Part shown: positions 795-16,062 of the stretch, one piece after another | Layout: each line of letters starts with the position of its first letter | Numbering within the stretch: position 1 is the first letter of the stretch | NCBI GenBank assembly: GCA_002068435.1 | Contig: MVZQ01000005.1 | Coordinates: 1-39,652, forward strand | DNA from: Euryarchaeota archaeon ADurb.BinA087 | Lineage (GTDB): Archaea; Halobacteriota; Methanomicrobia; Methanomicrobiales; Methanospirillaceae | Reading direction: 5' to 3' | DNA: 39,652 bases | The notes under the pieces: generated by a model | Told to the model about the DNA's origin: nothing | Databases searched by the model: none | Seen by the model: only the letters and a program-made list of their open reading frames with translations | Program-made: the position numbers and the translations under genes

Positions 795-808
795 AACGGT
801 TCTTACCC

Positions 809-957: not shown

Positions 958-989
958 CAAGAATTTTCAGCATGTACTGAGGTTTTCGT

Positions 990-1562
990 ATGACTGATAT
1001 CATTGTGTATGAAGAACGGATTTGTACCGTGAAATGGGGTACCTTCATCATTCTTGGGCTGCTCTCACTGATCTTCGGCATCCTGATATTCTTCTATCCT
1101 GGCGTTACTGCTGCAGTACTTGTCATGCTCTTTGGCGTACTGATCATCGTGCTTGCGCTCCTCGCCCTGGTGGCAGCCCTGATGAGTCCGGGGGGATCGG
1201 GTCGTCCATCGCTGTTGCTGTTTGCGGCACTTCTTGGGTTCATCGTAGGAGCAGCGGCTCTTGTCGCCCCCCAGATCTTTGGGGCGATCCTGACCATCAT
1301 TATCGCAGTGGTCCTGTTCGTGATCGGTATCATGAATGTGGCACTCGCTTTGTCAGAGAAGGATTACCCCCATCGCTGGCTGGTGTTCCTCCTTGGGATC
1401 CTCTCAATCATCTTCGCAATCCTGATCATGATCTACCCGCTTATCGGTTCGATCATCCTCTTCGGATATCTTATCGGCCTGTATTTCGTTATTTACGGGA
1501 TACTCTCCCTCATTGCCGGATTTGCACTGAGGAGCGTCCAGAAAGAATACTGTAAAGCATAA
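990..1562 (+). CDS. HdeD/DUF308 family membrane protein
   Basis: A 190-residue, very hydrophobic protein with about six membrane helices arranged as three pairs. It carries the repeated DUF308 pattern of a glycine-rich helix followed by a YP turn (ILIFFYPGVTAAVLVMLFGV and LIMIYPLIGSIILFGYLIGL). E. coli HdeD belongs to this family and is linked to acid resistance, but the molecular activity is unknown. The start follows GAGGTTTTCGT at ribosome-binding distance. A second copy of the family lies at 14660-15223, and a related helical region ends the protein at 17204-18085. Confidence 0.8.
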   Translation: MTDIIVYEERICTVKWGTFIILGLLSLIFGILIFFYPGVTAAVLVMLFGVLIIVLALLALVAALMSPGGSGRPSLLLFAALLGFIVGAAALVAPQIFGAILTIIIAVVLFVIGIMNVALALSEKDYPHRWLVFLLGILSIIFAILIMIYPLIGSIILFGYLIGLYFVIYGILSLIAGFALRSVQKEYCKA

Positions 1563-1708
1563 CTCCATCACCTTTTTCTCCTGCCAAAAAATCGCATTTT
1601 CCACAAAGGAGTTGCTGAAGAGTAATTCAGTATGAATCCTGTTTACCAGGGTACTCCAACGGTTCAAACAGAATTCTGCTCCCAGAAGGTAAGGTAATGT
1701 GGGGAGGA

Positions 1709-3133
1709 TCACCCCAGCGGAGAGAAGAGCCTTGATACCGACTCCTTTGCCTTGATCCAGCGTGAACGGCTCTTATACTTCTCCAGAGTTAATTCAGTGC
1801 ATTTCGGGAGATCATCCAGGAATGCCTTCTTCATCTGATTCCCATATTCCTGATCGTAGAAGAAGGCATTTGCTTCGAAGTTCAGCCTGAAGCTCCGGAC
1901 ATCGAAATTGGCGCTCCCCACCGAGGCAGCGACACCATCCACAACGATCGTCTTTGCATGGATAAACCCATTGTCATAGGTATATGCTCTAACTCCTGAC
2001 TCCAGCAGCTCACCAATAAAGGAGAGGGTTGACCAGTATACGAATGGATGATCAGGTTTACAGGGTATCATGATTCTGACATCCACACCGGAATGCGCCG
2101 CTATCCGGAGGGCGTCAGATATGCTCTCATCGGGGATAAAATAGGGGGTCTGGATGTATACCGATTCCATGGCGCTCTGGATCAGTTTCACGTACCCTTC
2201 CTTGATCTGGTTCCAGCGGCCATCCGGGCCGCTCGAGACGATCTGGAGTGGACAGGCCCCGTGTCCTGTCTTTTCAGGGAAATAAACAGGATCGTAGGTG
2301 AGGTCTTGTTTTGCTGCGTAGTTCCAGTCCATGAAGAATCGGAGCTGCAGGCCGATTACCCCTGTCCCTTCAATCCGTATCGCTGCATCACGCCAGTACC
2401 CGAGCGGCCCTTTCCCAAGATACTCCTCACCGATATTGTATCCCCCGATAAATCCGGTAGTGCCATCGATCACTGCTATCTTCCGGTGATTCCGGTAATT
2501 CAGGGTGTATAAGCGGGGGAAAAATGCCGCATATGTTCCGCCCGCCTGGAGGAACTCCTCCAGGCCCTTCTTCTTCACTTTCATACCCAGTGAATCGGCA
2601 AGGAGCCTGACTTCCACCCCTTCCCGAGCTTTCGCCGCGAGGGCAGAGATCAGGTCCCGTGAGAGCGGGTCATCCCGTATGATGTAATATTGGAGATGGA
2701 TATGATGCCTGGCCCCGCGGATGGCATCAAAGAGGGCATTGAACTTCTCTTTTCCGTCAGTGTAAATAGTGAGCGTGTTGTCATTCGTGATGATTGCCTG
2801 GTTGCTCTCCAGGAGCATTCTGGCGATACTCACAAGCCGTTCGTGAGCGCTACCCCGCTGTTCCATCCCGATACGCTTGAGCTCCTTCTTCTGGGATGTT
2901 ACTGTCTCTCTGATACTCTGGTCAACCTCTGCTTTTCTCGAGAACAGGCGGCGTCTTGTCCAGTCCTGGCCGAGAAAAAGGTAAGCGAAAAAGCCGAGTC
3001 CTGGGAGGAGAATCAGGACAAGGATCCAACCTACCGTTGCAGTGGGATTCTTTCTCTTATCAAAAATGATGACCAGGATCAATATGATATCAAGGATGAG
3101 GAAAATCTCGCGGATCGTAAGAAGGAGAGCCAA
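1709..3133 (-). CDS. cls: Cardiolipin synthase-type phospholipase D enzyme
   Basis: A 474-residue protein with two N-terminal membrane helices (about residues 5-25 and 32-54), then two phospholipase D domains. Both HKD motifs are intact: HRKIAVIDG at residue 216 and HAKTIVVDG at residue 392, each followed by the usual G.NIG or GSANFD segment. This is the bacterial-type cardiolipin synthase plan, which joins two phosphatidylglycerol-type lipids. Methanospirillum has an archaeal enzyme of this type that makes dimeric ether phospholipids, so an archaeal cardiolipin analogue is the likely product. The start is TTG, chosen because AGAGGTATCAC lies at good spacing. It fits the nearby envelope genes. 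Confidence 0.87.
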   Translation of the reverse strand: MALLLTIREIFLILDIILILVIIFDKRKNPTATVGWILVLILLPGLGFFAYLFLGQDWTRRRLFSRKAEVDQSIRETVTSQKKELKRIGMEQRGSAHERLVSIARMLLESNQAIITNDNTLTIYTDGKEKFNALFDAIRGARHHIHLQYYIIRDDPLSRDLISALAAKAREGVEVRLLADSLGMKVKKKGLEEFLQAGGTYAAFFPRLYTLNYRNHRKIAVIDGTTGFIGGYNIGEEYLGKGPLGYWRDAAIRIEGTGVIGLQLRFFMDWNYAAKQDLTYDPVYFPEKTGHGACPLQIVSSGPDGRWNQIKEGYVKLIQSAMESVYIQTPYFIPDESISDALRIAAHSGVDVRIMIPCKPDHPFVYWSTLSFIGELLESGVRAYTYDNGFIHAKTIVVDGVAASVGSANFDVRSFRLNFEANAFFYDQEYGNQMKKAFLDDLPKCTELTLEKYKSRSRWIKAKESVSRLFSPLG

Positions 3134-3177
3134 GAGTGATACCTCTATCCTGTTCTCACGGGCAGAGATGATAAGAG

Positions 3178-3591
3178 TTACCGGTCGGTCGTGGGCTTCC
3201 CGGGGATATCATCTTCGAGTGCGCGAAGGATTGCCTTCCGGAAGAGGATCTCGGGGGCTTCACCACAGAGGATCCCGTCAGGTCCCGGCAGTGAAAGGTA
3301 GAGGTTCCGGATCGGCATACATCGGGAGGCATGACAGTATTCCTCCCCTTCAGCGGCAGCAGAGAGAAGAGATGAGAGCGGGATGCCATTGAGCGTTACC
3401 CTATTTACCCTGGCTCCCTTCTCCTGATCCACCCTCTCCTCCTGGAATGCGAACTGGATCCCCTCGTCCTGGAACGTGGGGAGAAGTTCTTCCAGTAATT
3501 CCATGAAGGTTTTCCTGGTATCCGTGCAGAAGAGACAGGGCTCAATCTGGTCTGCCGAGTGCTTCCAGAGCACCGTCAGTGACCTTTTCAT
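3178..3591 (-). CDS. DUF2703 domain protein, thioredoxin-like
   Basis: About 137 residues. The middle carries CLFCTDTRKTFMELLEEL, then an amphipathic strand region and NRVTLNGIPLSSLL, which match the DUF2703 pattern: a CxxC near the start, a helix, then an acidic strand and an N.V.LNG.PL segment. The function is unknown; the CxxC suggests a redox or metal role by inference. The longest ORF starts with GTG at 3600, but GTGATC there looks like part of a ribosome binding site, so I prefer the ATG at 3591. It is oriented with, and close to, the genes that follow. Confidence 0.6.
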   Translation of the reverse strand: MKRSLTVLWKHSADQIEPCLFCTDTRKTFMELLEELLPTFQDEGIQFAFQEERVDQEKGARVNRVTLNGIPLSSLLSAAAEGEEYCHASRCMPIRNLYLSLPGPDGILCGEAPEILFRKAILRALEDDIPGKPTTDR

Positions 3592-3646
3592 GGGGATCAC
3601 TGTAATGATAGGAAAGGGAGGGGATAAGGAATTCGGCCATATCCAC

Positions 3647-4099
3647 CTATTGTTCGATCAACCCGATATGCTCTATCGCGGATTGCTCAAGCTCGGTCCT
3701 CTTCATGAGTGTGGCAACATCCCGTATCGCTTCAAGCACATGAACGGATTCCTCAAGAAAACTGAGGATATCTGCAGGATAGAGGTCGATCCCATACTCA
3801 TCCTGGATAACAAGGGCGATCTGCCGGTGATCCAGCCCAGTCTCCCGAAGTTCTATGATCTCGCGGGCAAATTTCTTCTCAGGGCAGCCGCAGTGGGGAT
3901 TGTCCCGGCAGTTGCACCGGAGAAACGTGTTGAAGAAGGAGAGGATTTGTTCTTTGAGGACATGATCAAGGCGTTCGGTGTTGAGACGGGAAGAGAGGGC
4001 GTCTAGCGTCGCCCCGTGAAATGCAAGATCAGGAATCCGATACCCTACCGCCCGTTCGATCTTCCGTGCATGCCTGAACCGGGCCCTGCCGGCAATCAC
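3647..4099 (-). CDS. Unknown protein with a cysteine cluster, DUF5814-like
   Basis: A 150-residue protein, not firmly recognised. The centre holds CNCRDNPHCGCPEKK, a compact group of four cysteines and a histidine that looks zinc-binding. It is followed by helical segments (FAREIIELRETGLDHRQIAL and a glycine-poor helix with DILSFLEE) that read like a small helix-turn-helix. The cluster resembles the C-terminal metal-binding tail of archaeal Ski2-like helicases, but no helicase motifs are present. Its GTG start overlaps the stop of the DUF2150 gene as GTGA, so the two are translationally coupled. A GGAGAGGCGTC ribosome binding site precedes it. Confidence 0.45.
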   Translation of the reverse strand: MIAGRARFRHARKIERAVGYRIPDLAFHGATLDALSSRLNTERLDHVLKEQILSFFNTFLRCNCRDNPHCGCPEKKFAREIIELRETGLDHRQIALVIQDEYGIDLYPADILSFLEESVHVLEAIRDVATLMKRTELEQSAIEHIGLIEQ

Positions 4100-4731
4100 G
4101 ACGCCTCTCCAGCCTCCTCGTCGAAATTCTTGAGTGAGCCCATGGCTTCGTGCATGCTCTCAATCTCGATCAGCCACTCATCGAATAGTCCCGGCTGCTC
4201 GATGTCGTCCTTGATATACTTGCTGCAGCAGGCTGCGCCGTTGATAACATTGGCAGCTATCTCAGCGGCGATACCAAGTGCGGTCTCGAGATCCTCCTCA
4301 CCTGCCTTCTTTCCATCCTTGACAAGGGTTTTGATGTCAGTGGAGTACTGGCCTTCAAGGAACCGCTTGCACCCTGCGAAGAGGACGAGCATGGAAAGCT
4401 GGAGCGATTCCACATACTCCTCGATATTCTCATCTTTGACATCTGACATCACGATGGCCTCGACATGGTTCAGCTTCTGGAGGGCCTCCTCCCTGGTGAA
4501 CCTGTCATTCTGGAAGAGCCGGATGATCTTCAGGACCTCGATCGTCACGTCCATGGAAAAATTATAGAGGGTGGTATAGCCTTCGGGCAGCTCCTCGGAA
4601 TCGTCTTTAGGGGTGAAATCCGAATCCCTGAGTGTATTGATCCAGTTGTCCCAGCGCTCCTGGTTGTAAAAAATATAGAACAATTTGAGGGGTTCTTCCT
4701 CTTTGACTCTCTTTTCCTTCTTTTTTGCCAT
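4096..4731 (-). CDS. DUF2150 family archaeal protein
   Basis: A 211-residue soluble acidic protein with a lysine-rich start (MAKKKEKRVKEEE) followed by FYIFYNQERWDNWINTL and a long helical body. The length and the W-N-W-I pattern match DUF2150, a family largely confined to methanogens and of unknown function. It is the first gene of a three-gene minus-strand run (this gene, the cysteine-cluster protein, then the DUF2703 protein). A strong TATA-like stretch at 4804-4815 lies upstream and leaves a leader of roughly 50 bases. Confidence 0.7.
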   Translation of the reverse strand: MAKKKEKRVKEEEPLKLFYIFYNQERWDNWINTLRDSDFTPKDDSEELPEGYTTLYNFSMDVTIEVLKIIRLFQNDRFTREEALQKLNHVEAIVMSDVKDENIEEYVESLQLSMLVLFAGCKRFLEGQYSTDIKTLVKDGKKAGEEDLETALGIAAEIAANVINGAACCSKYIKDDIEQPGLFDEWLIEIESMHEAMGSLKNFDEEAGEAS

Positions 4732-4870
4732 CAGTACCTGATGTATTCTTAAATCTTAAAGATTTTTGGTTTTCATACCGAAAGGAGCCCGGATATGGGT
4801 TAGTTTTATATATATCGTGAGGAACGCATACAAAAGGATTATTCTGGGTTCGCCACGGGTCTCATGCTTT

Positions 4871-4890
4871 GAGATTCTTTTAAGAATCTC
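4871..4890. promoter_or_regulatory. Perfect inverted repeat between the DUF2150 and ClC genes
   Basis: GAGATTCTT (4871-4879) and AAGAATCTC (4882-4890) are exact 9-bp arms with a 2-base centre. The repeat lies about 140 bases upstream of the DUF2150 start and 190 upstream of the ClC start. A related palindrome with the same GATTCTT/AAGAATC core lies at 17066-17082. It could be an operator; no hairpin-terminator context is seen. Confidence 0.4.
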
Positions 4891-5056
4891 TCAGACATTT
4901 CACGACACCGCTCCATGTGTGAATTTTCAGGGTGAGCGTATCAGTTACGACAAATATGCCATGACAATTTAGCTCTCGCCGGGTCATCCCCTTAAAAGAC
5001 CGAGAATCGCTGTATGAGCCTGAAACAAACCGATGAAATTTAATACTCCATGGTTT

Positions 5057-5069
5057 TTCACACTGTGAA
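5057..5069. promoter_or_regulatory. Short palindrome at the ClC start region
   Basis: TTCACA (5057-5062), C, TGTGAA (5064-5069). It sits about 20 bases downstream of the predicted TATA box and 9 bases before the ATG, where a bound protein would block transcription initiation. Confidence 0.35.
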
Positions 5070-5078
5070 GGATGAGCA

Positions 5079-6395
5079 ATGCCAGAAGATGTGAGCAGTA
5101 CACGGATTGACGAGGCTACCGAATCGTTAAACACGAAAAAATTCTACCTTCTCCTTCTTTTCGTCTCAATAGTCGGTATCATCGGTGCTCTGATGATGAT
5201 CGTGTTCTTTTTCCTGGAGGATTTTTTTACTGCGTTGCTATGGAACGATATTCCGATAGAGTCACTCACTCCCGTTTTTAATCCCTGGATCCTTGTCATC
5301 TGCATCCTTGGCGGGCTCATTGTCGGGATCATACGCTGGTATTTCAAAGGTGAGATCGCCATCATGGCAGAGGATCTTCTCGAGTTCGAAAAGGAAGGAA
5401 GGTTTGGTCTCAAGAGGGGGATTGAGCTCTTTTTCCGGGGCCTCGTCTCACTCGTGTGTGGAGCGCCCCTTGGCCCGGAGGCCCCCCTGACCGTCTCCTC
5501 GGGGGCTGTGGGAACACTGGTTGCTGAGAAAGCACGAATGCCACCGCCTCTGGTCACGCTCTCTTCCCTCTCTGCATTCAGTGGTTTCTTTGGAGCATTC
5601 CTCACATCTCCGTTCGGAGGGGCACTCATCCTCATAGAAATTACTCTTGAAAAGGGCAGGATGACCTGGAAGGCTATACTCCCCTCAATTGTTGCTGCTA
5701 CGGCAGGATTTGCGGTCTATTTCCTGTTAACAAATTCGTTCCTTGGTGGCATGTTCACCCTGCCTGTGTATGAGGAGTTCAGGAACATCGATCTCCTGTA
5801 TGCAATCTTCCTTGGCCTCATTGGCGGGGCATGCGGGATTTTTTTTATTGTCCTTTATAAGAAAATGCGGGAAGTATTCGAGCCGTGGGAGAACCGGCCT
5901 GTGCTTCTTGGATTGCTTGGGGGTCTTGGATTGGGAATTGCCGGAATACTCCTTCCCCTCACTCTGTTCATGGGGAGCGAAGAGCTCCAGTTCCTTATCA
6001 ACAATTACCTTGAGGTCAGCCTCATCCTTCTGGCCGTTCTTGTCGTAGTGAAGATTATCCTGATTACCTTTTCATTCTCAACGGGGTTTGCCGGTGGGTA
6101 TATCTTCCCTGGCTTCTTCATCGGGGGGACCCTCGGGATACTGGTATTCCGGCTCTTTCCGTTCATCCCCCTTGCGGTATGCCTCGTTTGTGTCATCTCC
6201 GGGGTTAGTGTTGCACTGCTCAGAAGCCCCATCGCTCTTGCCATGATAATTGCCATGGTCTTTGTCCCCGAGCTCATTCCGGCAATGGCCATAGCCCTGG
6301 TGATGGGCTTTGTCGTGAGCTACCGGTATTCTCTTCCTTACACCAGGAAGATACGCAGGACAGAGAGGCAAGACAGTTCTTCCGAAAACACATAA
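5079..6395 (+). CDS. ClC-family chloride channel/antiporter, short form
   Basis: A 438-residue integral membrane protein with the ClC fold but no C-terminal CBS domains. The gating-glutamate segment reads GPEAP (canonical GREGP), so the glutamate is kept while its neighbours differ. The later GG.F.PG.FIGG element is present as GGYIFPGFFIGGTLG. The usual GSGIP segment near residue 80 is not recognisable and is replaced by RWYFKGEIAIMAED. ClC proteins move chloride through the membrane, some coupled to protons; which applies here cannot be read from the sequence. The start has a GGATG-type ribosome binding site. A second, CBS-bearing ClC is at 33699-35489. Confidence 0.82.
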   Translation: MPEDVSSTRIDEATESLNTKKFYLLLLFVSIVGIIGALMMIVFFFLEDFFTALLWNDIPIESLTPVFNPWILVICILGGLIVGIIRWYFKGEIAIMAEDLLEFEKEGRFGLKRGIELFFRGLVSLVCGAPLGPEAPLTVSSGAVGTLVAEKARMPPPLVTLSSLSAFSGFFGAFLTSPFGGALILIEITLEKGRMTWKAILPSIVAATAGFAVYFLLTNSFLGGMFTLPVYEEFRNIDLLYAIFLGLIGGACGIFFIVLYKKMREVFEPWENRPVLLGLLGGLGLGIAGILLPLTLFMGSEELQFLINNYLEVSLILLAVLVVVKIILITFSFSTGFAGGYIFPGFFIGGTLGILVFRLFPFIPLAVCLVCVISGVSVALLRSPIALAMIIAMVFVPELIPAMAIALVMGFVVSYRYSLPYTRKIRRTERQDSSSENT

Positions 6396-6487
6396 TAACC
6401 AGGACAATGAAAAATGTGGATTGATTTGAGGAACAGACTCCCTTTCTCCAATTCCTCACCTTATATGTAAACAATGGCTATAATCTA

Positions 6488-7378
6488 TTGAAACGTATGT
6501 CCCATCCTCCTCGTTTGAAAAAAACCTGGTATCCCGTGATAATTCTGTTTTTTATTCCGTTGATTCTGCTCCCTGGTTATATGGCATGGGAGGCAGGCAA
6601 TCCAACAATAACACACCTGCACATAGATGCTGCACCGGATGGAATCGTGTTTATCGCAGATCCCCATATCAAGAGTGAAAATGAAGAAACGGTTCGGGAA
6701 GTGATCAGCAAGATCAATCATATGCAGCCCAGCATTGTTCTGATCGGGGGAGATTTTTACGGCCCGGGTGAAGAAACGCTCTCGTTCCAGGAGATCTGGA
6801 AAGGTATTGATGCTCCTGTCTATGCGGTGCTCGGAAACCATGACTATAAGGTCGGGATCCAGGGATCAGGGGCCGAAGGGAGGATGGCATGGGTGATCGA
6901 ATCGATCCTCCGTTCACAGGGATATAATACAAGTCCTCTCTATTCGGATCCTGATATTGCTTCTGCGGATATTCTTGAAGATGTGCTCGAAAGGAACGGT
7001 GTAACGGTTCTCCGGAATGAATGGATATCACTGGACATGAACGGACAGCGCCTCAACCTGTGCGGATTAGATGATATCTGGGCTGGAAAGGCAGATCCAC
7101 CAGATCTCCCTGATAATGGAGCATATCGAATCTACCTTCTCCATGAGCCGTATTACCAGGAGGAATGGGATGCCGACCTTATCCTGTCAGGTCATACCCA
7201 TGGAGGGCAGATAGGGAATGGTATATTCATGGTTCTTGATACTGCCGGGATTGTTGATATTCGGGGACGTTCAATGAAGGATGATACCATCATGTACGTT
7301 ACTCGTGGTATTGGAACCTCGAAGGGTGACAATGATTACCGCCTCTTTAGCTCACCGGAGATTGTAGTGATCAACTAA
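6488..7378 (+). CDS. Membrane-anchored metallophosphoesterase
   Basis: About 296 residues: one N-terminal membrane helix (about residues 13-33), then a calcineurin-like phosphoesterase domain. The metal-binding motifs are in order: IADPHI, GGDFYG, LGNHD and GHTHGGQ. The closest known plan is the YkuE/YaeI group, which acts at the membrane, including on lipid phosphates; the substrate here is unknown. The first in-frame start is TTG at 6488; an ATG lies at 6497. A TATA-like CTTATATG about 25 bases upstream means the message may begin almost at the start codon, and no ribosome binding site is visible. Confidence 0.82.
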   Translation: MKRMSHPPRLKKTWYPVIILFFIPLILLPGYMAWEAGNPTITHLHIDAAPDGIVFIADPHIKSENEETVREVISKINHMQPSIVLIGGDFYGPGEETLSFQEIWKGIDAPVYAVLGNHDYKVGIQGSGAEGRMAWVIESILRSQGYNTSPLYSDPDIASADILEDVLERNGVTVLRNEWISLDMNGQRLNLCGLDDIWAGKADPPDLPDNGAYRIYLLHEPYYQEEWDADLILSGHTHGGQIGNGIFMVLDTAGIVDIRGRSMKDDTIMYVTRGIGTSKGDNDYRLFSSPEIVVIN

Positions 7379-7481
7379 AGTGAGGAGCAAAAATACGAAA
7401 TATTTGAAAGGTCCGGAAAAAATAGGTTATTAGATATTCGGGGGTCCTACACCCGGTCGTTTGATAAGGCACAATCTCCTA

Positions 7482-7823
7482 TCATTTCATGCCTGCCTGT
7501 TTTTCCAGTGTTTCCAGCCGGGTCTCCAGCTCCTTCAGATTCTGATCCATCGTCTCTGAGAAGCTCTTGAGCGATGCCACTTTTGCCTCATCTGCTTCAA
7601 GAGTCTGGTCCTTGGAGTTCCTGAAAGACTGAAGCCTGGCCCGGCTGACGAGCGACCATTCATCGATCATCAGCTCGAACCTGCGGTCGAGATACTCGTC
7701 AACCCTGCTCTCCATGGGTCGTGTGAGCGACAATCCTCCTTTCGTCCCTTTCCAGTAATAATAAATCACGAATGCCACAATGGCAATGATAATGATGATC
7801 AGGGCAGCTTCGAGAGGAGTCAT
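7482..7823 (-). CDS. Small membrane-anchored protein of the three-paralogue operon (copy 3)
   Basis: A 113-residue protein with one N-terminal membrane helix (about residues 5-24, isoleucine-rich), then a 30-residue segment (38-67) containing YLDRRFELMIDEWSLVS that aligns without gaps with segments in the two preceding genes. A C-terminal coiled-coil stretch follows (heptad-like leucines in MDQNLKELETRLETLE). I do not recognise the family. Its start overlaps the previous stop as ATGA and has a strong GGGAGGTGAAGCG ribosome binding site. It is the last gene of a five-gene run and is probably tail-anchored to the same complex as its neighbours. Confidence 0.72.
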   Translation of the reverse strand: MTPLEAALIIIIIAIVAFVIYYYWKGTKGGLSLTRPMESRVDEYLDRRFELMIDEWSLVSRARLQSFRNSKDQTLEADEAKVASLKSFSETMDQNLKELETRLETLEKQAGMK

Positions 7824-8047
7824 CGCTTCACCTCCCTTAAATGGAGGAGACGATGTTCGAGTTCTTCCAGCTTGATCTCTGCGCTCGTCTCAAATGAGGC
7901 AATATCCCCTGAGGTTTCTTCGATGGCCTGGAGCCGTGTTTCAAAATCACTGATGTCATTCCGGGTAGCGAGGTCCCAGTCTTGGATCAGGTTCTTCATC
8001 CTCCGGTCCAGGTAGGCATTCATGTAGCTGTCCATGCCAACCATCAT
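7820..8047 (-). CDS. Small soluble protein of the three-paralogue operon (copy 2)
   Basis: A 75-residue protein consisting almost only of the shared segment (residues 6-35, with AYLDRRMKNLIQDWDLATR) and an acidic coiled coil after it. There is no membrane helix. The shared residues with copies 1 and 3 are the aspartate of the DR pair, an isoleucine, a tryptophan and a leucine (pattern D-x6-I-x2-W-x-L), plus many conservative matches. GGAGGTG lies directly before two adjacent ATG codons (8047, 8044). The end and start overlap both neighbours as ATGA. The function is unknown; the layout implies assembly with its paralogues. Confidence 0.72.
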   Translation of the reverse strand: MMVGMDSYMNAYLDRRMKNLIQDWDLATRNDISDFETRLQAIEETSGDIASFETSAEIKLEELEHRLLHLREVKR

Positions 8048-8358
8048 TGCACCTCCAGCTCGCGGATCCCTGCTTCAAGGGCAGCTGCACGCTTCTCGAT
8101 CTCATCTCTGCCTCTCTCAAGGTTCCGAATCTCGGTCGTTACCATCTCCAGACGGTCATCAAGATCATCGAGCGTATGCATTGTGATGAGCCCCCACTCG
8201 CTGATGATGGCGGACATGTGGGCGTCAAAGAACCGGTCGAGGCTCTTGTCCATTGTGGGCATCTTCGAATCGATGGTCCCGGGGATTGCAATCAGTGATT
8301 CTTTGAACGAGGATTTCTTGGCCGTCTCTGCAGGTGCGTTTTCATACATCATGATCAT
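8044..8358 (-). CDS. Small protein of the three-paralogue operon (copy 1)
   Basis: A 104-residue protein. An N-terminal region of about 35 residues without clear structure is followed by the shared segment (37-66, including RFFDAHMSAIISEWGLIT) and then a coiled coil (NLERGRDEIEKRAAALEAG). There is no membrane helix. It is the most diverged of the three copies: the RR pair is AH here. The start may be at 8358 or at either following ATG (8352, 8349); GGGATGATC would serve the later ones. It overlaps both neighbours by four bases. Confidence 0.68.
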   Translation of the reverse strand: MIMMYENAPAETAKKSSFKESLIAIPGTIDSKMPTMDKSLDRFFDAHMSAIISEWGLITMHTLDDLDDRLEMVTTEIRNLERGRDEIEKRAAALEAGIRELEVQ

Positions 8359-8771
8359 CCCAGTTTCTTCTCTTCATCTTTGATCTTTTCCACCATGCGG
8401 TCAAGTTTGGTGAGGGTCACCTTGTTCTCGAGCCGCTCTATCCGTTTGTCGATAGCGCTGTGTTTTGCGAAGATATCGGTTGAGAGTGCAGTATTATCCT
8501 CGTCGAGCTTACGGATCTCTTCCATCTTGTCCGGTGCAACGCGGAAGAACGGGGTCCCCCGCTGGACCATCTCAGCTTGCATCAGGCCGAGTTTCTCCTT
8601 CTCAAGATCGATCTCTGCAAGGCGCCGGGTGTTTCTCATCAGCCGTATCTCTTTGATGATGAAATAGGCAATAATGAGGATGATGACAAGGATGATGATC
8701 CAGAAGACCGATTCGAACCACGCCCAGTGGGGAGAAACCGGTTCAATAACGAGCATCGTCTGATTTACCAC
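8355..8771 (-). CDS. Membrane-anchored coiled-coil protein of the same operon
   Basis: A 138-residue protein with one membrane helix (about residues 21-43, WIIILVIILIIAYFII) followed by a charged helical domain. The C-terminal half is strongly coiled-coil (SAIDKRIERLENKVTLTKL). It lacks the 30-residue motif of the three downstream genes. The GTG start is supported by GGAGATGATTT at proper spacing. It lies 17 bases after the barrel-protein gene and overlaps the next gene by four bases. The family is not recognised; a membrane scaffold is an inference from the architecture. Confidence 0.68.
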   Translation of the reverse strand: MVNQTMLVIEPVSPHWAWFESVFWIIILVIILIIAYFIIKEIRLMRNTRRLAEIDLEKEKLGLMQAEMVQRGTPFFRVAPDKMEEIRKLDEDNTALSTDIFAKHSAIDKRIERLENKVTLTKLDRMVEKIKDEEKKLG

Positions 8772-8788
8772 AAATCATCTCCCCCGGG

Positions 8789-9247
8789 TTATAACTCCTT
8801 ATCTTCTTTTTTAGGGGTGACTTTCCCGACAACGTCCTTTGCCCCTTTCTCAACGGTCTTCCCTGCTTTTGTTGCGCCTTCCTTTAGTGTCCCCCCGGCC
8901 TTGACGGCACCTTCTTTTACTGCACCACCGGCTTTTGCAGCACCCTTCGTGACCATCTCAGTCCAGGTGACTTTCCGAATCACTGAGATGGTGTCTCCTT
9001 CGGCCACGCCAAGCGCTGCAATATCTTCCGGAGAGAGCATGATGAGCGATTTATCCACCATCGTGTCTCCGTATCCGGTGACAGCGACAGTTTTGGTCTT
9101 CTTGTCCCATTCGGTCGGGTATTGTGCAAGGAGCAGAGCCTCTCCCTCCTTTGCACCGATCATCGGCAGGACTGTTTCATGAACCCTGGCCCGGCCCTTG
9201 CTTGGAAACGTCCGTACTTTCACCTTTAATGTAACTGTTCCTTCCAT
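8789..9247 (-). CDS. Beta-barrel protein with an 11-residue-repeat tail
   Basis: A 152-residue protein and first gene of the operon. Residues 1-95 are strand-rich and contain SPEDIAALGVAEGDTISVI, typical of the double-psi beta barrels found in Cdc48 N-domains and AbrB-like folds. From about residue 102 the tail has three consecutive 11-residue units: KAGGAVKEGAV, KAGGTLKEGAT, KAGKTVEKGAK. Such 11-mer amphipathic repeats occur in LEA proteins and synucleins, which bind membranes as helices. No ribosome binding site is visible; the transcript may be leaderless. A role at the membrane surface with the downstream anchored proteins is inferred. Confidence 0.62.
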   Translation of the reverse strand: MEGTVTLKVKVRTFPSKGRARVHETVLPMIGAKEGEALLLAQYPTEWDKKTKTVAVTGYGDTMVDKSLIMLSPEDIAALGVAEGDTISVIRKVTWTEMVTKGAAKAGGAVKEGAVKAGGTLKEGATKAGKTVEKGAKDVVGKVTPKKEDKEL

Positions 9248-9382
9248 AGCAAATACACATATTTTCTTCTTCTATTAATCACTTGTTCACGAAAAAATCA
9301 GAATCCTTGAAGTGGTAAAAGCAAACAGAATGAACATACTTGGCATTGTATAACACAGAGGAGTATCCCGACCTTTTAAGGC

Positions 9383-9705
9383 AGGTGTCGCAAAACTGTT
9401 GGAAATCAGCCTGGTTATCCTGGTTCTGATGGGATTCTTATCCTTGTAGTGGGTGCTTTCATTGTCCTTCAGCCTGAAGGTGTGTCATAATCAGTGAATA
9501 TCCAGTCCGCTGGAGATGTTGTCTGGTTGGCGTTTTGTTCCAATCATCTCGTGCTAAATTCGATTCCCTATACCCACCTGGGGCAGGCTATCTTGCTGAG
9601 CTGAAACAACAGATGCACGAAAGGGAGATGATCGAGACAGAGATCACCTGCCGCTATAAAAAGTTCGAACACCTCCCAATTAGAATATCTATAAATACGA
9701 ATTAA
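9383..9705 (+). pseudogene. Possible decayed small membrane protein gene
   Basis: Plus-strand pieces in different frames read as parts of one small protein. AGVAKLLEISLVILVLMGFL is interrupted by a stop after one further codon pair. GILILVVGAFIVLQPEGVS continues the membrane helix in the next frame. A third piece, YLAELKQQMHEREMIETEI followed by a KK pair, resembles a C-terminal SHOCT-type helical hairpin. At least two frame changes would be needed. This could be chance hydrophobic reading, so the call is tentative. Confidence 0.3.
9687..9698 (+). promoter_or_regulatory. Predicted TATA box of the gene at 9721
   Basis: ATCTATAAATAC is centred about 27 bases before the ATG at 9721. With the absence of a ribosome binding site this indicates a leaderless message. 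Confidence 0.55.
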
Positions 9706-9720
9706 AGTGCAGCAAATAGT

Positions 9721-10359
9721 ATGACATCTCGGTTTCGCTCGCCTGGCATGTATCTTGCCTATCTCCTTCAGGCTGCTGTTGCTTTCAATGTTCTTCTCGC
9801 TGTGATTTTTAAGCCCCAGGATGTGCTAATTGGGTTAGTTCTCTTCCTGATAGCACTGCTTATCTACCTGTTCTCATGGAAGACGAAGATCATGTTTCCC
9901 TGGTTTGTTTATGCCCTTGTCTCCCTGGCAGTGCTTATCCATATCTCAGGCTATATCCAGGGGAGATACCTTGCCTTCGTAAACTGGGATGTGCTCGCCC
10001 ATACGGTCTCGGGAACTATTGTAGCCCTGATTGGTTTCCTTGTCATCCTCTTCTGGGACAAGATTAAAAATTACCATCTTGATGCTGCGTTCATCGGGAT
10101 CTTCATCGTCTTCTTCGGATGTGTCTTCGAATATTTCTGGGAGATCTGGGAGTTTTGCGTCGACACATTCCTAGGGGGATCTGCTGCCGGACTGATGCAG
10201 GCGAACAATGCCGATACCATGACCGACATGATCTTTGTCCTGATCGCTTCCCTCATCGTGGGGATTGGATGCTATTACTACCTGAAACACTATGGAAAGG
10301 AAACGATCTTCCAAAATATGGTGAGGGACAGCACCTACCTGAAAAAATTTAATTTATAA
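9721..10359 (+). CDS. Polytopic membrane protein, YjdF/DUF2238-like (copy 1)
   Basis: A 212-residue protein with about six membrane helices. Conserved polar residues lie within or beside the helices: H-x2-G near residue 80, D-x2-AH near residue 97, WEIWEFCVD near residue 140, and NN-x-D-T-M-T-D near residue 160. The same pattern with WEISEYVID and D-S-I-G-D occurs in the gene at 16319-16927, so the two are diverged paralogues. The arrangement resembles the YjdF/DUF2238 families, whose function is unknown. The buried acidic and histidine residues suggest metal binding or an enzymatic role, which is inference. A T7 run at 10403-10409 follows. Confidence 0.65.
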   Translation: MTSRFRSPGMYLAYLLQAAVAFNVLLAVIFKPQDVLIGLVLFLIALLIYLFSWKTKIMFPWFVYALVSLAVLIHISGYIQGRYLAFVNWDVLAHTVSGTIVALIGFLVILFWDKIKNYHLDAAFIGIFIVFFGCVFEYFWEIWEFCVDTFLGGSAAGLMQANNADTMTDMIFVLIASLIVGIGCYYYLKHYGKETIFQNMVRDSTYLKKFNL

Positions 10360-10400
10360 TTATCCTTTTCCAGAAAGACTTGAGAATGATCCATAATTAC

Positions 10401-10410
10401 TCTTTTTTTG
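10401..10410 (+). terminator. Poly-T terminator after the gene at 9721
   Basis: Seven consecutive T residues (10403-10409) about 45 bases after the stop codon, without a stem-loop, as for archaeal oligo-U terminators. Confidence 0.4.
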
Positions 10411-10613
10411 CAATCCCCTGATCGATGCCACCAATTCTGGGAATAGGGATAGTAATGTCGTCAAAGGGGAGATATTATAACAAGCAAGAAGGGGTCAGAG
10501 TCCTGCATGGATCTCTTCATCACTACACCAAATTTTCTCCTTTCTGCCCTTCACCCAGCTTTTTAGTTGTTATCTCTCGATGTTTGGCCGGAAGCGGCAC
10601 TCCAAACATGGTA

Positions 10614-11183
10614 TCAGTATGAATTTACTGCAATAGGGATAGTGGTGATCTTCCGATATATTCTCCGTTTCCTGGCAAGATTTCGGTAATCGTACAGGAA
10701 ATGTTCGTAGGTATCCCATATGGTTGCCCAGTTCATGATGGTGAGAAATGCCAGGATAATACCTGCTTTCAATGACTGTGGCGGGATTTCGCTGACCCCG
10801 ACATAAGCGATGAAGAGCAACAGAAGTCCAATATTGACGAGCATAAGGATGAGACTGTATATCCCTTCTCTCAATGCAATCTTGAGGTCGTGGGTCAGGT
10901 CGTCCTGCCGGAACCCGAAGTGATGGCGTATGGATTCGGCGATATGTGGAATGATACCATCTGTAAGATCTTTTCCCGGCAATTCAATGACCAGACGAGC
11001 TGGCTTGCTGACCCGGTATTCATCGAGGTGCCCTGAAATTGCATCCTCAGCCTCTTCGGTCAGCTCCTTTTCGGGAAGCGAGGAAGGATCGTCCTCCTCA
11101 AGGAGCTGCCCAAGCGACTTGAATCTGAAGGTAATCTGAACGCTTTTATCTTGCTCTTCCTTCTTTACGACAATTTTTTTCAT
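10614..11183 (-). CDS. Unknown membrane protein with two central helices
   Basis: A 189-residue protein, not recognised. Residues 1-100 are soluble and charged, with strand-like VQITFRFKSL and ARLVIELPGKDL segments and a histidine pair in IRHHFGF. Two membrane helices follow (about 110-130 and 140-158), then a basic tail (YRNLARKRRIYRKI). The N-terminal domain probably sits in the cytoplasm. The ATG has only a weak AGGATAGTG site. It lies downstream of the antiporter gene in the same direction with a 114-base gap, so it may or may not be co-transcribed. Confidence 0.6.
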   Translation of the reverse strand: MKKIVVKKEEQDKSVQITFRFKSLGQLLEEDDPSSLPEKELTEEAEDAISGHLDEYRVSKPARLVIELPGKDLTDGIIPHIAESIRHHFGFRQDDLTHDLKIALREGIYSLILMLVNIGLLLLFIAYVGVSEIPPQSLKAGIILAFLTIMNWATIWDTYEHFLYDYRNLARKRRIYRKITTIPIAVNSY

Positions 11184-11297
11184 TTCACTATCCTACTAGG
11201 GATTGATCTGCCGGGATATAACCCTGCTTTTTATATCGAATGCCCGGGGGGGTGCCCGGCGGTGAATTTTTACCAAATATTTTCTGGAAACGCTATT

Positions 11298-12578
11298 TCA
11301 ATCCCTCACTGTCACCTGCATACGTGTTGGTGATTCCACGACTTCCTTTAACTCCGCTGCATCTGAAGGCAGCGAAGCAATTTTCTTTACATACCAGGTG
11401 ATAGCCGGATTTGCCGAAATGCCGTGCGCAAAGACACTTATCAGAATGGTAGTACTCACTGCTACCGCAATTGTCTGCAGACCAGGCAAGTCTGGCGCTT
11501 CGTTGAGGGTAATAAGCAAAAGAACAATCGAGGCAAGCCCTCGTGGACCAAACCATCCGATGAAGAGGATTGAATTCGGTTTCAATCCTGTTTTAATCAA
11601 AGACAGAGCGACCGGTAGTATTCGTATGAGGGTAAGACTCAGTACAGCATAAACGATTATCGCAGCAGTGACCCCGGACAGGAGACTCGCTGCGATCATC
11701 CCAAAAACGAAGAATACGACAAGACTGAACACTTCTCCCCAGGTTGAGGTAAATTCGATGATCGATTCCCCTATTCCCCCGGCAGTGAGAGTGGTTGCTA
11801 ATCCCCCCACAAATGCTGCAATAAAACCGCTCCCCCCAACAGCAATAGCCGTAACATATGAGATCACGGCAAGTGCCAGAAAACCAATCCACTGATATCT
11901 CCCTCTCATCAATCCCCGATCTATTGCTTTATTGACAAGATATGCCCCCACCAGCCCCACGATTAATCCCACAAGAACCCCGTATCCAATCTGCTCTAAC
12001 GCAAAGATGACCCATTGACTGGCGGGAATATGCGCCTCCTCCGCTGCTGAAAGGACCAGGAAGAAGGCAAAGAAAGGGATTGCACCTCCATCGTTGAGTC
12101 CGCTTTCCACATTCAGAGCCTGTCGTATTCTTGCCGGTACTTTTGGACTATTGACAATCACCTGGCCAAGTCCAGCATCTGTCGGTGAAAGGATTACTCC
12201 TATCAGGGCTGCTTCTGGTAAGGAAAGATCGGTGAAAAACAGTATTGCAATCACAGCCCCCAAAAAAATTGTGAGGGGAAGACCTATTCCGAGCAATCGG
12301 GAAGGGAAATTCCGGTTTCCTTTCAACGTAGAGACATCAATACGTGCTGCATCGGAGAAAAGGATTAATACCAGGGCAATTTCTGCAAATACCAATATTA
12401 ATTCATTGTCTGCACCGAGCGGTATAATATCAAATCCTTCAGGGCTGACAAGCATCCCAATCGCGACAAAGATCATCGGGGCGGTGATCATTGAGCTTTC
12501 AATACGATGCGACACAAGAGAATACACAAACAGGATTATGGAAAAAATTATGATGCCGACAAGGATTAACGATACCAT
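11298..12578 (-). CDS. nhaP: CPA1-type sodium/proton antiporter
   Basis: A 426-residue integral membrane protein with about twelve helices. The CPA1 signatures are present: GVILSPTDAGLGQVIVNSP, where the TD pair lies in the ion-binding unwound helix, and ALNVESGLNDGGAIPF with the ND pair of electroneutral antiporters. A later WFGPRGLASI element is the usual helix 11 pattern. It exchanges sodium (or potassium) for protons across the cell membrane. The first possible start is GTG at 12581; I use the ATG at 12578. A TTTAAATAG element about 27 bases upstream suggests a nearly leaderless transcript. There is no C-terminal TrkA or USP domain. Confidence 0.85.
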   Translation of the reverse strand: MVSLILVGIIIFSIILFVYSLVSHRIESSMITAPMIFVAIGMLVSPEGFDIIPLGADNELILVFAEIALVLILFSDAARIDVSTLKGNRNFPSRLLGIGLPLTIFLGAVIAILFFTDLSLPEAALIGVILSPTDAGLGQVIVNSPKVPARIRQALNVESGLNDGGAIPFFAFFLVLSAAEEAHIPASQWVIFALEQIGYGVLVGLIVGLVGAYLVNKAIDRGLMRGRYQWIGFLALAVISYVTAIAVGGSGFIAAFVGGLATTLTAGGIGESIIEFTSTWGEVFSLVVFFVFGMIAASLLSGVTAAIIVYAVLSLTLIRILPVALSLIKTGLKPNSILFIGWFGPRGLASIVLLLITLNEAPDLPGLQTIAVAVSTTILISVFAHGISANPAITWYVKKIASLPSDAAELKEVVESPTRMQVTVRD

Positions 12579-12738
12579 CACAACTTACTACTAGCAATGA
12601 AATCTATTTAAAAAAAAGTGTCTATCATTTTCTCTGAGGTGGTGATTACCTCTTTTTCTTTGTTCTAAAAAAAATCTTCGTAGTTCCATCAGCGTGTAGA
12701 GTCAAAGATACAATAACGTGGAATTGAAAAATGTATTT

Positions 12739-13005
12739 TTACAATCCCAAGAGCTTCTTTTTCATTGCAGCAAATTCTTCGTCAGTGAGAACTCCTTGCT
12801 TGTGGAGATCTGCCAGTTTCTGTAGTTCGGCTGTAGTATCTATCTGGGGTGCCGCAGGGGCTGTCGCAGCCTGGGCTTGTGCTGCACCCTCCGCCCTTGC
12901 CTGTTCTACCTCTGTCTGATGCTGGGCCTGCGCGGCGTATTGTTGTTGGGCCCGTGCTTCACCCGCCCTCATTCCTGCAACGAGCATTAATCCTCTTCCT
13001 CTCAT
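12739..13005 (-). CDS. SHOCT domain protein
   Basis: About 88 residues. An N-terminal glycine/methionine stretch is followed by a glutamine- and alanine-rich helix (RAQQQYAAQAQHQTEVEQAR) and a C-terminal SHOCT hairpin, LADLHKQGVLTDEEFAAMKK. SHOCT domains are short oligomerisation or membrane-targeting elements often attached to stress-related proteins. The longest ORF begins with TTG at 13011. The ATG at 13005 has AGGAGG nine bases upstream and lies two bases after the DUF6325 stop, so I chose it. It forms a two-gene operon with DUF6325. Confidence 0.75.
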   Translation of the reverse strand: MRGRGLMLVAGMRAGEARAQQQYAAQAQHQTEVEQARAEGAAQAQAATAPAAPQIDTTAELQKLADLHKQGVLTDEEFAAMKKKLLGL

Positions 13006-13007
13006 GT

Positions 13008-13457
13008 TCAAGCGCCTCCTTTTACCTTCAGGTGTTTCTCTGCTTTTGCGATGGTTTCCGGTGGGATGCGCCCCATGTCGATCAGCTCGGCATCGGCCTC
13101 AAGCAGGGCTGCCTTAAACTTGATCGCCCAGACATTCTCGAAGAGCAGGAGGGCGGCCGATGTGTTATTTGCCAGAGACGTTGCCAACGCTTCAATATCG
13201 CCTTCTGAGAACCACTCATCGGTGCGTTTTGCCAGTTCTCTGTACGCTGCACCCGCCTCTCCTTCCAGGTTCTTCGCCTCAACTATCCCCAGCTTCCCGT
13301 TCGCATCCTTCAGGATCATAACCAGATCGATGATCCGGATTATACCTTTCTTTTCCAGATCAATCAGTTCGGGTGCGATCTTCCCGGTGAACTTGTTCCC
13401 AGGGAACCTGATCATCAGGTAATCCACCGGGCCCATGATTTTTTCATGGTTGGTCAT
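13008..13457 (-). CDS. DUF6325 family protein
   Basis: A 149-residue soluble protein beginning near GPVDYLMIRFPGNKFTGKIA, followed by LIDLEKKGIIRIIDLVMILK, the hallmark of DUF6325 (related to DUF1269). The fold is expected to be ferredoxin-like alpha/beta. Members are commonly next to SHOCT genes, as here, but the function is unknown. A late segment, ALLLFENVWAIKFKAAL, is a conserved part of the family. There is no strong ribosome binding site, and an AT-rich TATA-like stretch near 13485-13495 suggests a short leader. Confidence 0.75.
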   Translation of the reverse strand: MTNHEKIMGPVDYLMIRFPGNKFTGKIAPELIDLEKKGIIRIIDLVMILKDANGKLGIVEAKNLEGEAGAAYRELAKRTDEWFSEGDIEALATSLANNTSAALLLFENVWAIKFKAALLEADAELIDMGRIPPETIAKAEKHLKVKGGA

Positions 13458-13591
13458 AATACCAACAATTGATACGTCATACCGAGATTAAAAAATATTG
13501 TATTGCCCAGGTTTTGAAATATTTTTCACTATTGGATTATTGTGGATTGAACCTTATCGGAATTTTTTCCACCAAACTAATCCGACGAAAG

Positions 13592-13630
13592 AAAAAGTCT
13601 GACCGGGATGAGGTCAGGGTTCAAGCCCTG
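13592..13630 (-). terminator. Double stem-loop and T-run after the 33-residue gene
   Basis: On the minus strand, CAGGG/CCCTG with a 6-base loop (13615-13630) overlaps CTGACC/GGTCAG with a 7-base loop (13599-13617). Five T residues follow (13596 down to 13592). The gene stop is at 13635. This arrangement fits a terminator or a 3' end stabiliser. Confidence 0.5.
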
Positions 13631-13634
13631 TACT

Positions 13635-13736
13635 TCATTTCTTCTCTTCTGTTTTCTCGGCTTCTTTCTTCTCTTTCTTATCCTCTCTGCGTCCTTTTAC
13701 TGCTTTTACTGCAGCAACCTTTCCTAATACTCCCAT
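13635..13736 (-). CDS. 33-residue lysine/glutamate-rich small protein
   Basis: An ORF of 33 codons. The start MGVLGKVAAVKAVKGRRED is followed by a tail of alternating K and E blocks ending EEKK. The glycine/valine N-terminus looks like a short amphipathic helix and the tail is strongly charged. It is very likely real because AGGAGG lies exactly at ribosome-binding distance (13745-13750) and a terminator-like stem-loop follows the stop. A TATA-like run near 13815-13823 would give a leader of about 60 bases. I do not recognise a family. Confidence 0.65.
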   Translation of the reverse strand: MGVLGKVAAVKAVKGRREDKKEKKEAEKTEEKK

Positions 13737-13984
13737 GTTGTATTCCTCCTGCCCGGTTATCTTGTTGGATTTGGAGAGAAAACGGGCACACATGGGTTCT
13801 CTTCCTGGGATTATTAATATTTATGTGGTGTGTGGCGGATTCAAGCGATATTTCAATGATCTTTTTAAAGGAGAGAACAATTGAGGGGTTGTTGTGACCG
13901 GGACTAATCAAGAATTCGAAGACTTTAAATCAATCAATGAAACCTGCGATAAGAAAGGTTTCTGGTGATTCCCCAGAAAAATAC

Positions 13985-14506
13985 TTAGATCACCTGGACT
14001 GCACCATCACCCTCAAATGATGCACCTATCTGCTGAACATCCTCGTTACCTGGGGCACCCTGAACAACAAGGACATTATCCCCACTTGTGTAGACTTCTG
14101 TGTTCAGTGTCTTCCAATTTTGATATGTGTTCCTGGCTGTCACGATGGCCGCGTTCATTGCCTCTGTGCTGGTAAATCCGACAACCAGGACCTTTACCGT
14201 GGTGGAAGAGGGGAGAGCACCACAGTCGGGGGAGAGCTGATAGAGGATGGCACTCTGCCCTCCTGGAACATTCACCGGGTAGTTTTCCTGTGTACAGATC
14301 TGCAATCCGGCAGCAGCAGCGGCGGACTCGACCATGGGGGATGCGGTGGAAACTGAAGTGTGGGAGCTCGAATCAGGGAGGCTTACCCAGATCAGAATGG
14401 GCATAACGCCAATGAAGCAGAGGATGATAATAATCGTGAACGCTTTATTCGAAGATTCAGATTTTTTTGACCCTTGATCTGATTCTGATTTGTTCTTCTT
14501 GCTCAT
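13985..14506 (-). CDS. Membrane-anchored exported protein with conserved cysteines (copy 1)
   Basis: A 173-residue protein. A basic, serine-rich N-terminus (about 22 residues) precedes one membrane helix ending in MPILIWVSLPD. The rest is probably outside the cell. Its paralogue at 23126-23641 shares AAGLQIC, AILYQ-x-x-PDC, VVGF-x-STEA-x2-AAI and the APGN motif, with two conserved cysteines that could form a disulfide. The longest frame starts at 14539. The ATG at 14506 is preferred because AGGTGTATC lies directly upstream and the helix is then at the usual distance. The family is not recognised. Confidence 0.62.
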   Translation of the reverse strand: MSKKNKSESDQGSKKSESSNKAFTIIIILCFIGVMPILIWVSLPDSSSHTSVSTASPMVESAAAAAGLQICTQENYPVNVPGGQSAILYQLSPDCGALPSSTTVKVLVVGFTSTEAMNAAIVTARNTYQNWKTLNTEVYTSGDNVLVVQGAPGNEDVQQIGASFEGDGAVQVI

Positions 14507-14610
14507 GATACACCTGCTAGGCTTAAGCAATGATCTCATTACTGCCAGGTATTGTTTTTTGCCATTCGATCCTGCCAGATAGACCGATTTTGGATCTGCA
14601 CTACCATCTC

Positions 14611-14620
14611 TTTTATATAG
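14611..14620 (+). promoter_or_regulatory. Predicted TATA box of the second HdeD-like gene
   Basis: TTTTATATAG lies about 45 bases before the ATG at 14660. A start near 14640 leaves a 20-base leader with the AAGGTGAC ribosome binding site. Confidence 0.55.
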
Positions 14621-14659
14621 AAACGTGTAATGCTGTATGAAGAAAGGTGACTTAAACCA

Positions 14660-15223
14660 ATGACTGAAATGACATCAACAACGGGAGTTTCCCACCCCCT
14701 CGGGACCTTCTTCCCATGGTGGCTCCTGCTGATACAGGGTATCATAGCCCTCATACTGGGCATATTCCTGATCATGTACCCGCTCCAGACGCTCATGGTC
14801 TTTATCGTCTTCCTTGGCGCCTATTGGTTCGTCAGTGGCATCTTTACGCTATTCAGTGCTGCAGCGGATCCTGCTGACAGAGGGATGAAGATACTCCTTG
14901 GTATACTTGGTATTATCCTTGGGCTCCTGATCCTTGCCTATCCATGGTATAGCACCTTTATTGTGCCCTTTATCTTTGTAATCATGATAGGAATTATTGC
15001 CCTGATTTACGGATTTTATGCCCTTTATGGAGCGTTCACAGGGAAGGGGTGGGGTGTCGGCATACTGGGGCTTCTCTCGATTCTCTTCGGCATCCTCATC
15101 CTTGCAAGTCCTGTTGTCTCCACCATCGCGGTACCTTTCGTCTTTGGGATTCTGGGAATCATCTTCGGATTTGCAGCGATTGTCGGTTCATTCTTCCTGA
15201 GGTCGTCACAAAAGACGGCCTGA
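14660..15223 (+). CDS. HdeD/DUF308 family membrane protein (second copy)
   Basis: A 187-residue protein with a short soluble start and six membrane helices in three pairs. It shows the YP turns typical of DUF308 (IFLIMYPLQTLMVFIVFLGAY, LILAYPWYSTFIVPF, then an SP variant LILASPVVSTIAVPF). It is similar in plan to the gene at 990-1562 but clearly diverged. The start has AAGGTGAC at about 10 bases. It is probably part of the membrane-stress set; the molecular role of the family is not known. Confidence 0.8.
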   Translation: MTEMTSTTGVSHPLGTFFPWWLLLIQGIIALILGIFLIMYPLQTLMVFIVFLGAYWFVSGIFTLFSAAADPADRGMKILLGILGIILGLLILAYPWYSTFIVPFIFVIMIGIIALIYGFYALYGAFTGKGWGVGILGLLSILFGILILASPVVSTIAVPFVFGILGIIFGFAAIVGSFFLRSSQKTA

Positions 15224-15384
15224 CCAAAATATCTCCCCTTTTGAATGTGATAGTGGTTACCCGAACGAAAAACCTTGGTAACTTTGCTATCCGGCGTTGA
15301 AAATTACCCAATTGTTGACAAATCGTAGGATTTCGCCAGTTTTAATGGTCTGAATATCACACCGACCTGTTATTTTAACCTGAT

Positions 15385-16062
15385 ATGCCCCACTTAAAAG
15401 TAATGGATCGTAAACTGGCGGGTATCCTTGCTCTGTTGCTCGTAAGCGGTACAGCCCTCACTCTTGCCGCCTATTTCTTTGGAGTATTCCATTTTGACCT
15501 GAAAGTTACGGCAGCACTCAAGGGAGCGGATAATCCCGCAGTTGCCACCCTGATGACTGCGGTAAGCTTCCTGGGTGACGGCTGGGTTCCCGTCCTCCTC
15601 GTGTTTACCGCTGCTGCGATCTGTGTATGGAAAAAAAGATGGATTGAGGTTGTCTTTATCGTTGCCACACTGAGCAGCGGGATCATTGCAGGAGTGCTGA
15701 AGATGCTTGTCAGCCGTCCCCGCCCCCCCAGCTTCATACTGAACCCAGAAGATATCTTCCATTTTTTCAACCAGTTTGCTTATCCAAGCGGGCATGTTCT
15801 TTTTTTCGTGACATTCTTCGGATTCACCGGCTACCTCGCATGGAAGTTTTTCTCGGGTTGGTTACGTGGGATCACTCTCTCGATCTGTGCCGCACTGATT
15901 CTCCTGATTGGACCATCACGAATCTATCTTGGAGAACACTGGGCAAGCGATGTGATCGGGAGCTATATCATCGGAACCTTCTGGCTGATCATCCTGATCC
16001 TCCTGTATCAACTCGTCCTGTATCGGAAATTGATAAAAGAGGGGAAAGCATGTCCGATTTAA
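15385..16062 (+). CDS. PAP2-type membrane phosphatase
   Basis: A 225-residue protein with about six membrane helices and the complete three-part phosphatase signature: KMLVSRPRP (KX6RP), YPSGH, and SRIYLGEHWASD (SRX5HX3D). PAP2 enzymes dephosphorylate lipid phosphates or isoprenyl diphosphates at the outer membrane face, so a role in archaeal isoprenoid lipid or glycan carrier recycling is likely. The substrate is unproven. Either the ATG at 15385 or the one at 15403 could be used; no clear ribosome binding site decides. Confidence 0.85.
   Translation: MPHLKVMDRKLAGILALLLVSGTALTLAAYFFGVFHFDLKVTAALKGADNPAVATLMTAVSFLGDGWVPVLLVFTAAAICVWKKRWIEVVFIVATLSSGIIAGVLKMLVSRPRPPSFILNPEDIFHFFNQFAYPSGHVLFFVTFFGFTGYLAWKFFSGWLRGITLSICAALILLIGPSRIYLGEHWASDVIGSYIIGTFWLIILILLYQLVLYRKLIKEGKACPI

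Follow-up and report, generated by a model that had tools for sequence, protein, structure and literature searches.

The described systems that come closest to the locus studied here are the Cdc48/p97 N-domain, the 11-mer repeats of alpha-synuclein and apolipoprotein A-IV, the phasins PhaF and PhaI (PF05597), the Prok-RING_2 family (PF14445) and the HdeD/DUF308 family (PF03729). In PhaF, a leucine zipper comes after an amphipathic helix (PMC3574117). The Cdc48/p97 N-domain shares, in its double-psi barrel half, the fold of residues 4-91 of protein A, the first product of the operon; however, A has no AAA+ ATPase and continues from the barrel into an amphipathic tail and, sometimes, a TrkA_C domain. 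That tail is like the 11-mer repeats in its period and profile matches, but the similarity is one of low complexity and probably reflects convergence rather than homology. Phasins share with the operon a helix-turn-helix running into a coiled coil, with a GLVTxxDL-like turn, and an amphipathic helix is encoded elsewhere in the operon; however, its matches to PF05597 fall below the cut-off and two of its subunits are integral membrane proteins. Prok-RING_2 includes protein F of the canonical operon, far above the cut-off, but covers F alone, the gene that is missing from our copy. Finally, HdeD-family genes are enriched neighbors of the operon and likely share its context, but lie outside it and have no homology to its genes. 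The folds are known individually, and no named system tested fits their combination. A search of the accessible literature returned nothing on the operon or PF14445; a 2011 study of prokaryotic RING fingers reportedly may have noted the neighborhood of F.

The window, i.e., the whole stretch of 39,652 nucleotides analyzed (contig MVZQ01000005.1 of Euryarchaeota archaeon ADurb.BinA087), carries the operon as five minus-strand open reading frames in the order A-B-C-D-E at 7482-9247 (Table 1). Adjacent genes share 4 bases (ATGA) at B/C, C/D and D/E, and A and B are spaced by 17 bases. An earlier note, made from the letters of the window, had described this five-gene layout with its three ATGA overlaps, as well as a membrane-anchored coiled-coil protein and a barrel protein with an amphipathic tail as the upstream genes. 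Both descriptions were borne out, the latter by a helix in all B orthologues and by a double-psi barrel with an 11-mer-type tail in A. The canonical place in the operon of F, which this copy lacks, the Cdc48-N likeness of A and the status of the window copy as an F-less duplicate lay beyond what that reader could see. The sequence upstream of A is conserved, with ATTAATAG kept in nearly the same place throughout the genus, and this conservation points to a single candidate promoter. In several F-bearing copies, a GC-rich imperfect palindrome (e.g., ATTCCGACGCCGGAAT in L046) occurs upstream of A, just before the TATA element (loci L028-L032 and L042-L046), and is a possible operator; it is not visible in the F-less window copy or in L040.

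Table 1. Positions of the operon genes, their parts and selected neighbors in the window.
Feature	Position	Strand	Description or basis
Gene A	8789-9247	-	Cdc48/p97-N-type double-psi beta barrel and 11-mer amphipathic tail; AlphaFold, Foldseek and PDB profile matches
A double-psi barrel domain, residues 4-91	8975-9238	-	Strand/helix pattern of model, Foldseek
A tail, residues 96-145	8813-8962	-	11-mer repeat amphipathic helix, period 3.68; model confidence low
Gene B	8355-8771	-	Predicted single-pass membrane protein, cytoplasmic coiled coil, invariant R-h-x-x-h-E
B membrane helix, ~residues 19-39	8655-8717	-	Predicted in 34/34 orthologues; K/R excess on C-terminal side
Gene C	8044-8358	-	Module, soluble copy, and coiled coil
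Shared module in C, residues 37-66	8161-8250	-	Motif-only profile comparison
Gene D	7820-8047	-	Module, minimal soluble copy; model helix 3-23, turn, helix 29-74
Shared module in D, residues 6-35	7943-8032	-	Motif-only profile comparison
Gene E	7482-7823	-	Module, membrane-anchored copy, and coiled coil with conserved R102-L-x-x-L-E107
Shared module in E, residues 38-67	7623-7712	-	Motif-only profile comparison
E membrane helix, ~residues 7-24	7752-7805	-	Predicted in 32/32 orthologues
Candidate TATA element ATTAATAG	9272-9279	-	32 to 25 bases before A start; conservation only
Gap at gene F place of canonical operons	7379-7481		F (Prok-RING_2) absent; convergent phosphoesterase next
HdeD-family gene	990-1562		
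HdeD-family gene	14660-15223		
Chloride channel	5079-6395		
Multi-pass membrane protein	11298-12581		Cation/proton antiporter look

The best ungapped 30-mer pairs among the window proteins begin at C36/D5, C36/E37 and D6/E38, and their BLOSUM scores (C/D 55, C/E 49, D/E 63) compare with maxima of 33, 27 and 37, respectively, in 60 shuffles per pair. All three pairs keep the register in which the earlier note had aligned E38-67, D6-35 and C37-66 without gaps. That note had also named profile searches with these segments as a test, and motif-only profiles of C, D and E, built from ~33 orthologues each, did retrieve each other, with probabilities of 97.8-97.9% and scores of 47-48, versus column-shuffle maxima of 16-19, none of 100 shuffles equaling any observed score. 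Full-length profiles matched at 98.5% (C-D), 97.4% (C-E) and 98.5% (D-E), while the coiled-coil protein B, a natural control, gave no profile match to C, D or E beyond its membrane helix. The match among C, D and E exceeds both chance and coiled-coil bias. The consensus of the module family is roughly D/E-S-x4-Y-L/F-D-R-R-F/M-x3-I-x-E-W-x-L-V/A-T/S, and the model of D consists of two helices joined by a turn (Table 1), for which a fold search returned no match, as expected of two helices. Since C, D and E fall into one clade apiece (split supports 0.87, 0.86 and 0.98), the duplications are older than the divergence of the operon-carrying families. Judged from their sequences, C, D and E derive from ancient duplications of a single helix-turn-long-helix module. 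Searches of Pfam and NCBIfam found no family above cut-off for B, C, D or E; the matches to A-E were sub-threshold or coiled-coil noise, and those to gas-vesicle GvpQ and archaellum FlaC were discarded as low-complexity or coiled-coil.

A membrane helix was predicted in all orthologues of B (34/34) and E (32/32) and in none of C (0/34) or D (0/33), in agreement with the earlier description of one module copy with a membrane helix and two without. An excess of K/R follows the helix on its C-terminal side in 34/34 B and 30/32 E orthologues, and by a simple charge rule both proteins are predicted to be single-pass, N-out/C-in; since the positive residues lie C-terminal of the helices, the cytoplasm is the expected location of the coiled coils. 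R-h-x-x-h-E, a trimer motif familiar from work on coiled coils, occurs in 34/34 orthologues of B, 32/33 of D, 32/32 of E and 14/34 of C, versus 6-8% in shuffles.

Sub-threshold similarity to phasins is the main alternative lead. If it were followed, the operon would encode a phasin-like coat of a hydrophobic or storage body, with the tail of A on the surface and the coiled coils of C, D and E oligomerizing as in PhaF, whose order of amphipathic helix and leucine zipper provides a precedent (PMC3574117). Pfam Phasin (PF05597) gave sub-cut-off matches to 12/27 orthologues of C, at a near-constant offset, and to 7/27 of D; a search of 61 genomes gave sub-threshold matches in 12, on gene C in all but one, and a real phasin aligns to C, D and E at one place, '(F/L)D...GL(V/I)T..DL'. 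However, all matches fall under the curated cut-off of 28.8 bits (the best ~21 in the genome search and 17.4 when members were scanned singly), and 8 of 80 heptad-block shuffles of C scored equally against the one true phasin compared, a single phasin from a plasmid collection that made up the comparison set. Moreover, that B and E are integral membrane proteins speaks against a granule coat, and no polyester synthase or granule gene occurs among the main neighbor clusters. We regard such a coat as unlikely.

Residues 4-91 of the AlphaFold model of A (152 residues in the window) match CDC48/p97 N-domains and stand-alone double-psi barrels with Foldseek E-values of ~1e-6, including one of 1.2e-6, and the TM-score to the stand-alone archaeal VCP barrel 7dg9 is 0.81. 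A profile search of PDB sequences agrees with a Cdc48-N/double-psi barrel, and Pfam CDC48_N lies below cut-off on A; the fold of A is the double-psi barrel of Cdc48/p97 N-domains. No AAA+ ATPase domain was found by Pfam in the A variants scanned. The tail, modelled with low confidence, has a period close to 11/3, and its profile matches apolipoprotein A-IV and alpha-synuclein. In several genera (loci L035, L036, L037, L038, L055 and L058), A extends at its C terminus into a fused TrkA_C (RCK_C) domain of the ligand-binding type (37.3 bits versus a cut-off of 27).

The flanks of the loci hold no fixed neighbor gene apart from F. HdeD/DUF308 (PF03729) genes, however, reach a density of 27 per Mb within 5 kb of the operon, and 12 of the 16 share its strand; the background, counted over ten complete or almost closed genomes, is ~33 genes in 26.8 Mb (~1.2 per Mb). 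This ~20-fold excess over genome density is suggestive; the loci are related, so the counts are not phylogenetically independent, and HdeD genes lie near a minority of loci only. In the window, positions 219-16062 are rich in membrane genes, including DUF937, two HdeD, a chloride channel, a possible antiporter and PAP2; this flank also encodes a phospholipase D-type (cardiolipin synthase-like) protein. The chloride channel and the antiporter-like protein, together with the TrkA_C domain on A, might suggest a regulator of ion or osmotic transport with TrkA_C as its sensor. Such a regulator appears quite improbable, since most lineages, the window's included, have an A without TrkA_C, and transporters are not recurrent neighbors of the operon.

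Across 101 loci, which include places fetched twice and correspond to 79 distinct ones, 91 read A-B-C-D-E and nine are truncated by contig ends. The remaining locus (L115, Methanogenium cariaci) has B, at 5051-5465, split into two pieces that overlap, a frameshift or sequencing error. The gene order, whose recurrence among Methanomicrobiales the earlier note had proposed to check, is intact at every uncut locus, one with a split B, and many relatives carry this set of genes in this order. A search with C matched 31 of 61 relatives, and the E profile was found in 90 of 232 Methanomicrobiales genomes; among the named carriers are Methanoregula, Methanolinea, Methanospirillum and Methanogenium, which bears out the assignment to Methanomicrobiales that the earlier note had assumed. 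Beyond Methanomicrobiales, a sample of the phylum gave chance-level matches alone to family E (E-values 0.002-0.01), discarded as short coiled-coil or membrane-helix matches. Two loci (L110 and L125) lie on contigs labelled Theionarchaea that are probably mis-binned Methanomicrobiales. Since several near-complete genomes of the same family lack the operon, it is dispensable. The order-restricted distribution and small coiled-coil subunits might also fit a Methanomicrobiales-specific element of the cell envelope, a filament or a cytoskeleton-like structure, with a purely structural role. However, Methanospirillum and Methanogenium differ in cell shape and both carry the operon, and A and F resemble binding modules rather than structural ones; we therefore give this possibility little credence.

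In 90 of the 101 loci, the end of E adjoins or is overlapped by a small sixth gene, F. Its product is Prok-RING_2 (PF14445; 90-122 bits versus a cut-off of 22.4, E-values 1e-26 to 1e-36), and the strong PF14445 matches in the phylum sample came from operon-carrying genomes. Its cysteines follow C-x2-C-x11-C-x2-CGRW-x-C-x2-C-x8-C-x2-C, i.e., FYVE-like spacing with the RING histidine missing and all-cysteine ligands in place of the classical RING C3HC4 pattern; searched against the PDB, it gave weak matches alone, to a TFIIE subunit. F is absent from the window copy and none was found in its own genome (76% complete), which holds a second operon copy (L007, G000:C159) whose C is 81% identical and whose contig ends after D. 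The closest relatives of the window copy (L040 and L041) also lack F and have the same convergent phosphoesterase next, and their genomes hold other operon copies with F. The three F-less copies make up a single clade in a B-E tree, next to two F-bearing copies from the L040 and L041 genomes, and dN/dS between the F-less copies is 0.05-0.13, indicating purifying selection. The window locus is therefore a maintained F-less duplicate of a six-gene system. The name Prok-RING_2 for F and the Cdc48-N-type barrel of A, binding parts of two types that come together when eukaryotes degrade membrane proteins, could conceivably indicate that the operon forms a membrane platform for a primitive ubiquitin-like ligase of RING-E3/Cdc48 type, but this is the least probable of the readings, given the FYVE-like cysteine spacing of F without a RING histidine, the persistence of F-less copies under purifying selection, the lack of an E1, E2 or ubiquitin-like gene among the main neighbor clusters, and the presence of a ubiquitin-conjugating (UQ_con) domain in 0 of 120 Methanomicrobiales genomes, in a search run without a positive control.

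The reading that we favor, and to which we give about an even chance, is that the operon encodes a membrane-anchored cytoplasmic hetero-coiled-coil scaffold that presents a Cdc48N-like head to clients and probably serves in membrane stress or quality control. In the assembly and function that we infer, A-E, usually with F, would form one transcription unit; C, D and E, perhaps with B, would join their long helices in a parallel hetero-oligomeric, probably trimeric, coiled coil, C, D and E pairing through the module and the trimer motif. E and B would tether this coiled coil to the cytoplasmic face of the membrane. The barrel of A may serve as a head for clients or partners, laid on the membrane by its tail, and F as a zinc-finger adaptor that the window's duplicate would have dispensed with. 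The likely job would be membrane stress or membrane-protein quality control in the vicinity of HdeD-type proteins, a role suggested because of the HdeD association and the roles of Cdc48-N domains elsewhere. The scaffold is the better supported half of this reading and the stress role the weaker half and its weakest step; the presence of the trimer motif in fewer than half of C orthologues counts against the scaffold. The earlier note had arrived at a membrane-surface complex built from one duplicated module, and of this the single module and the cytoplasmic membrane-surface location fit the data, while the physical complex, its stoichiometry and its function go beyond them.

A bolder version would make the operon an archaeal membrane quality-control or adaptor machine, with a hetero-trimeric anchored coiled coil, a Cdc48-N-like head and a RING/FYVE-like finger, that is an independent or ancestral counterpart of the RING and Cdc48-N arrangement at eukaryotic membranes; we consider it unlikely, much as we do the phasin-like coat. 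A strictly ordered operon that is widespread in one archaeal order, with four families outside the curated libraries searched, strongly suggests a cell-biological machine that has yet to be studied. This putative machine would belong to hydrogen-using methanogens, and its parts, i.e., a Cdc48-N barrel, a synuclein-like tail, a RING-like finger and anchored coiled coils, are of the kinds that organize membranes and protein quality control in eukaryotes.
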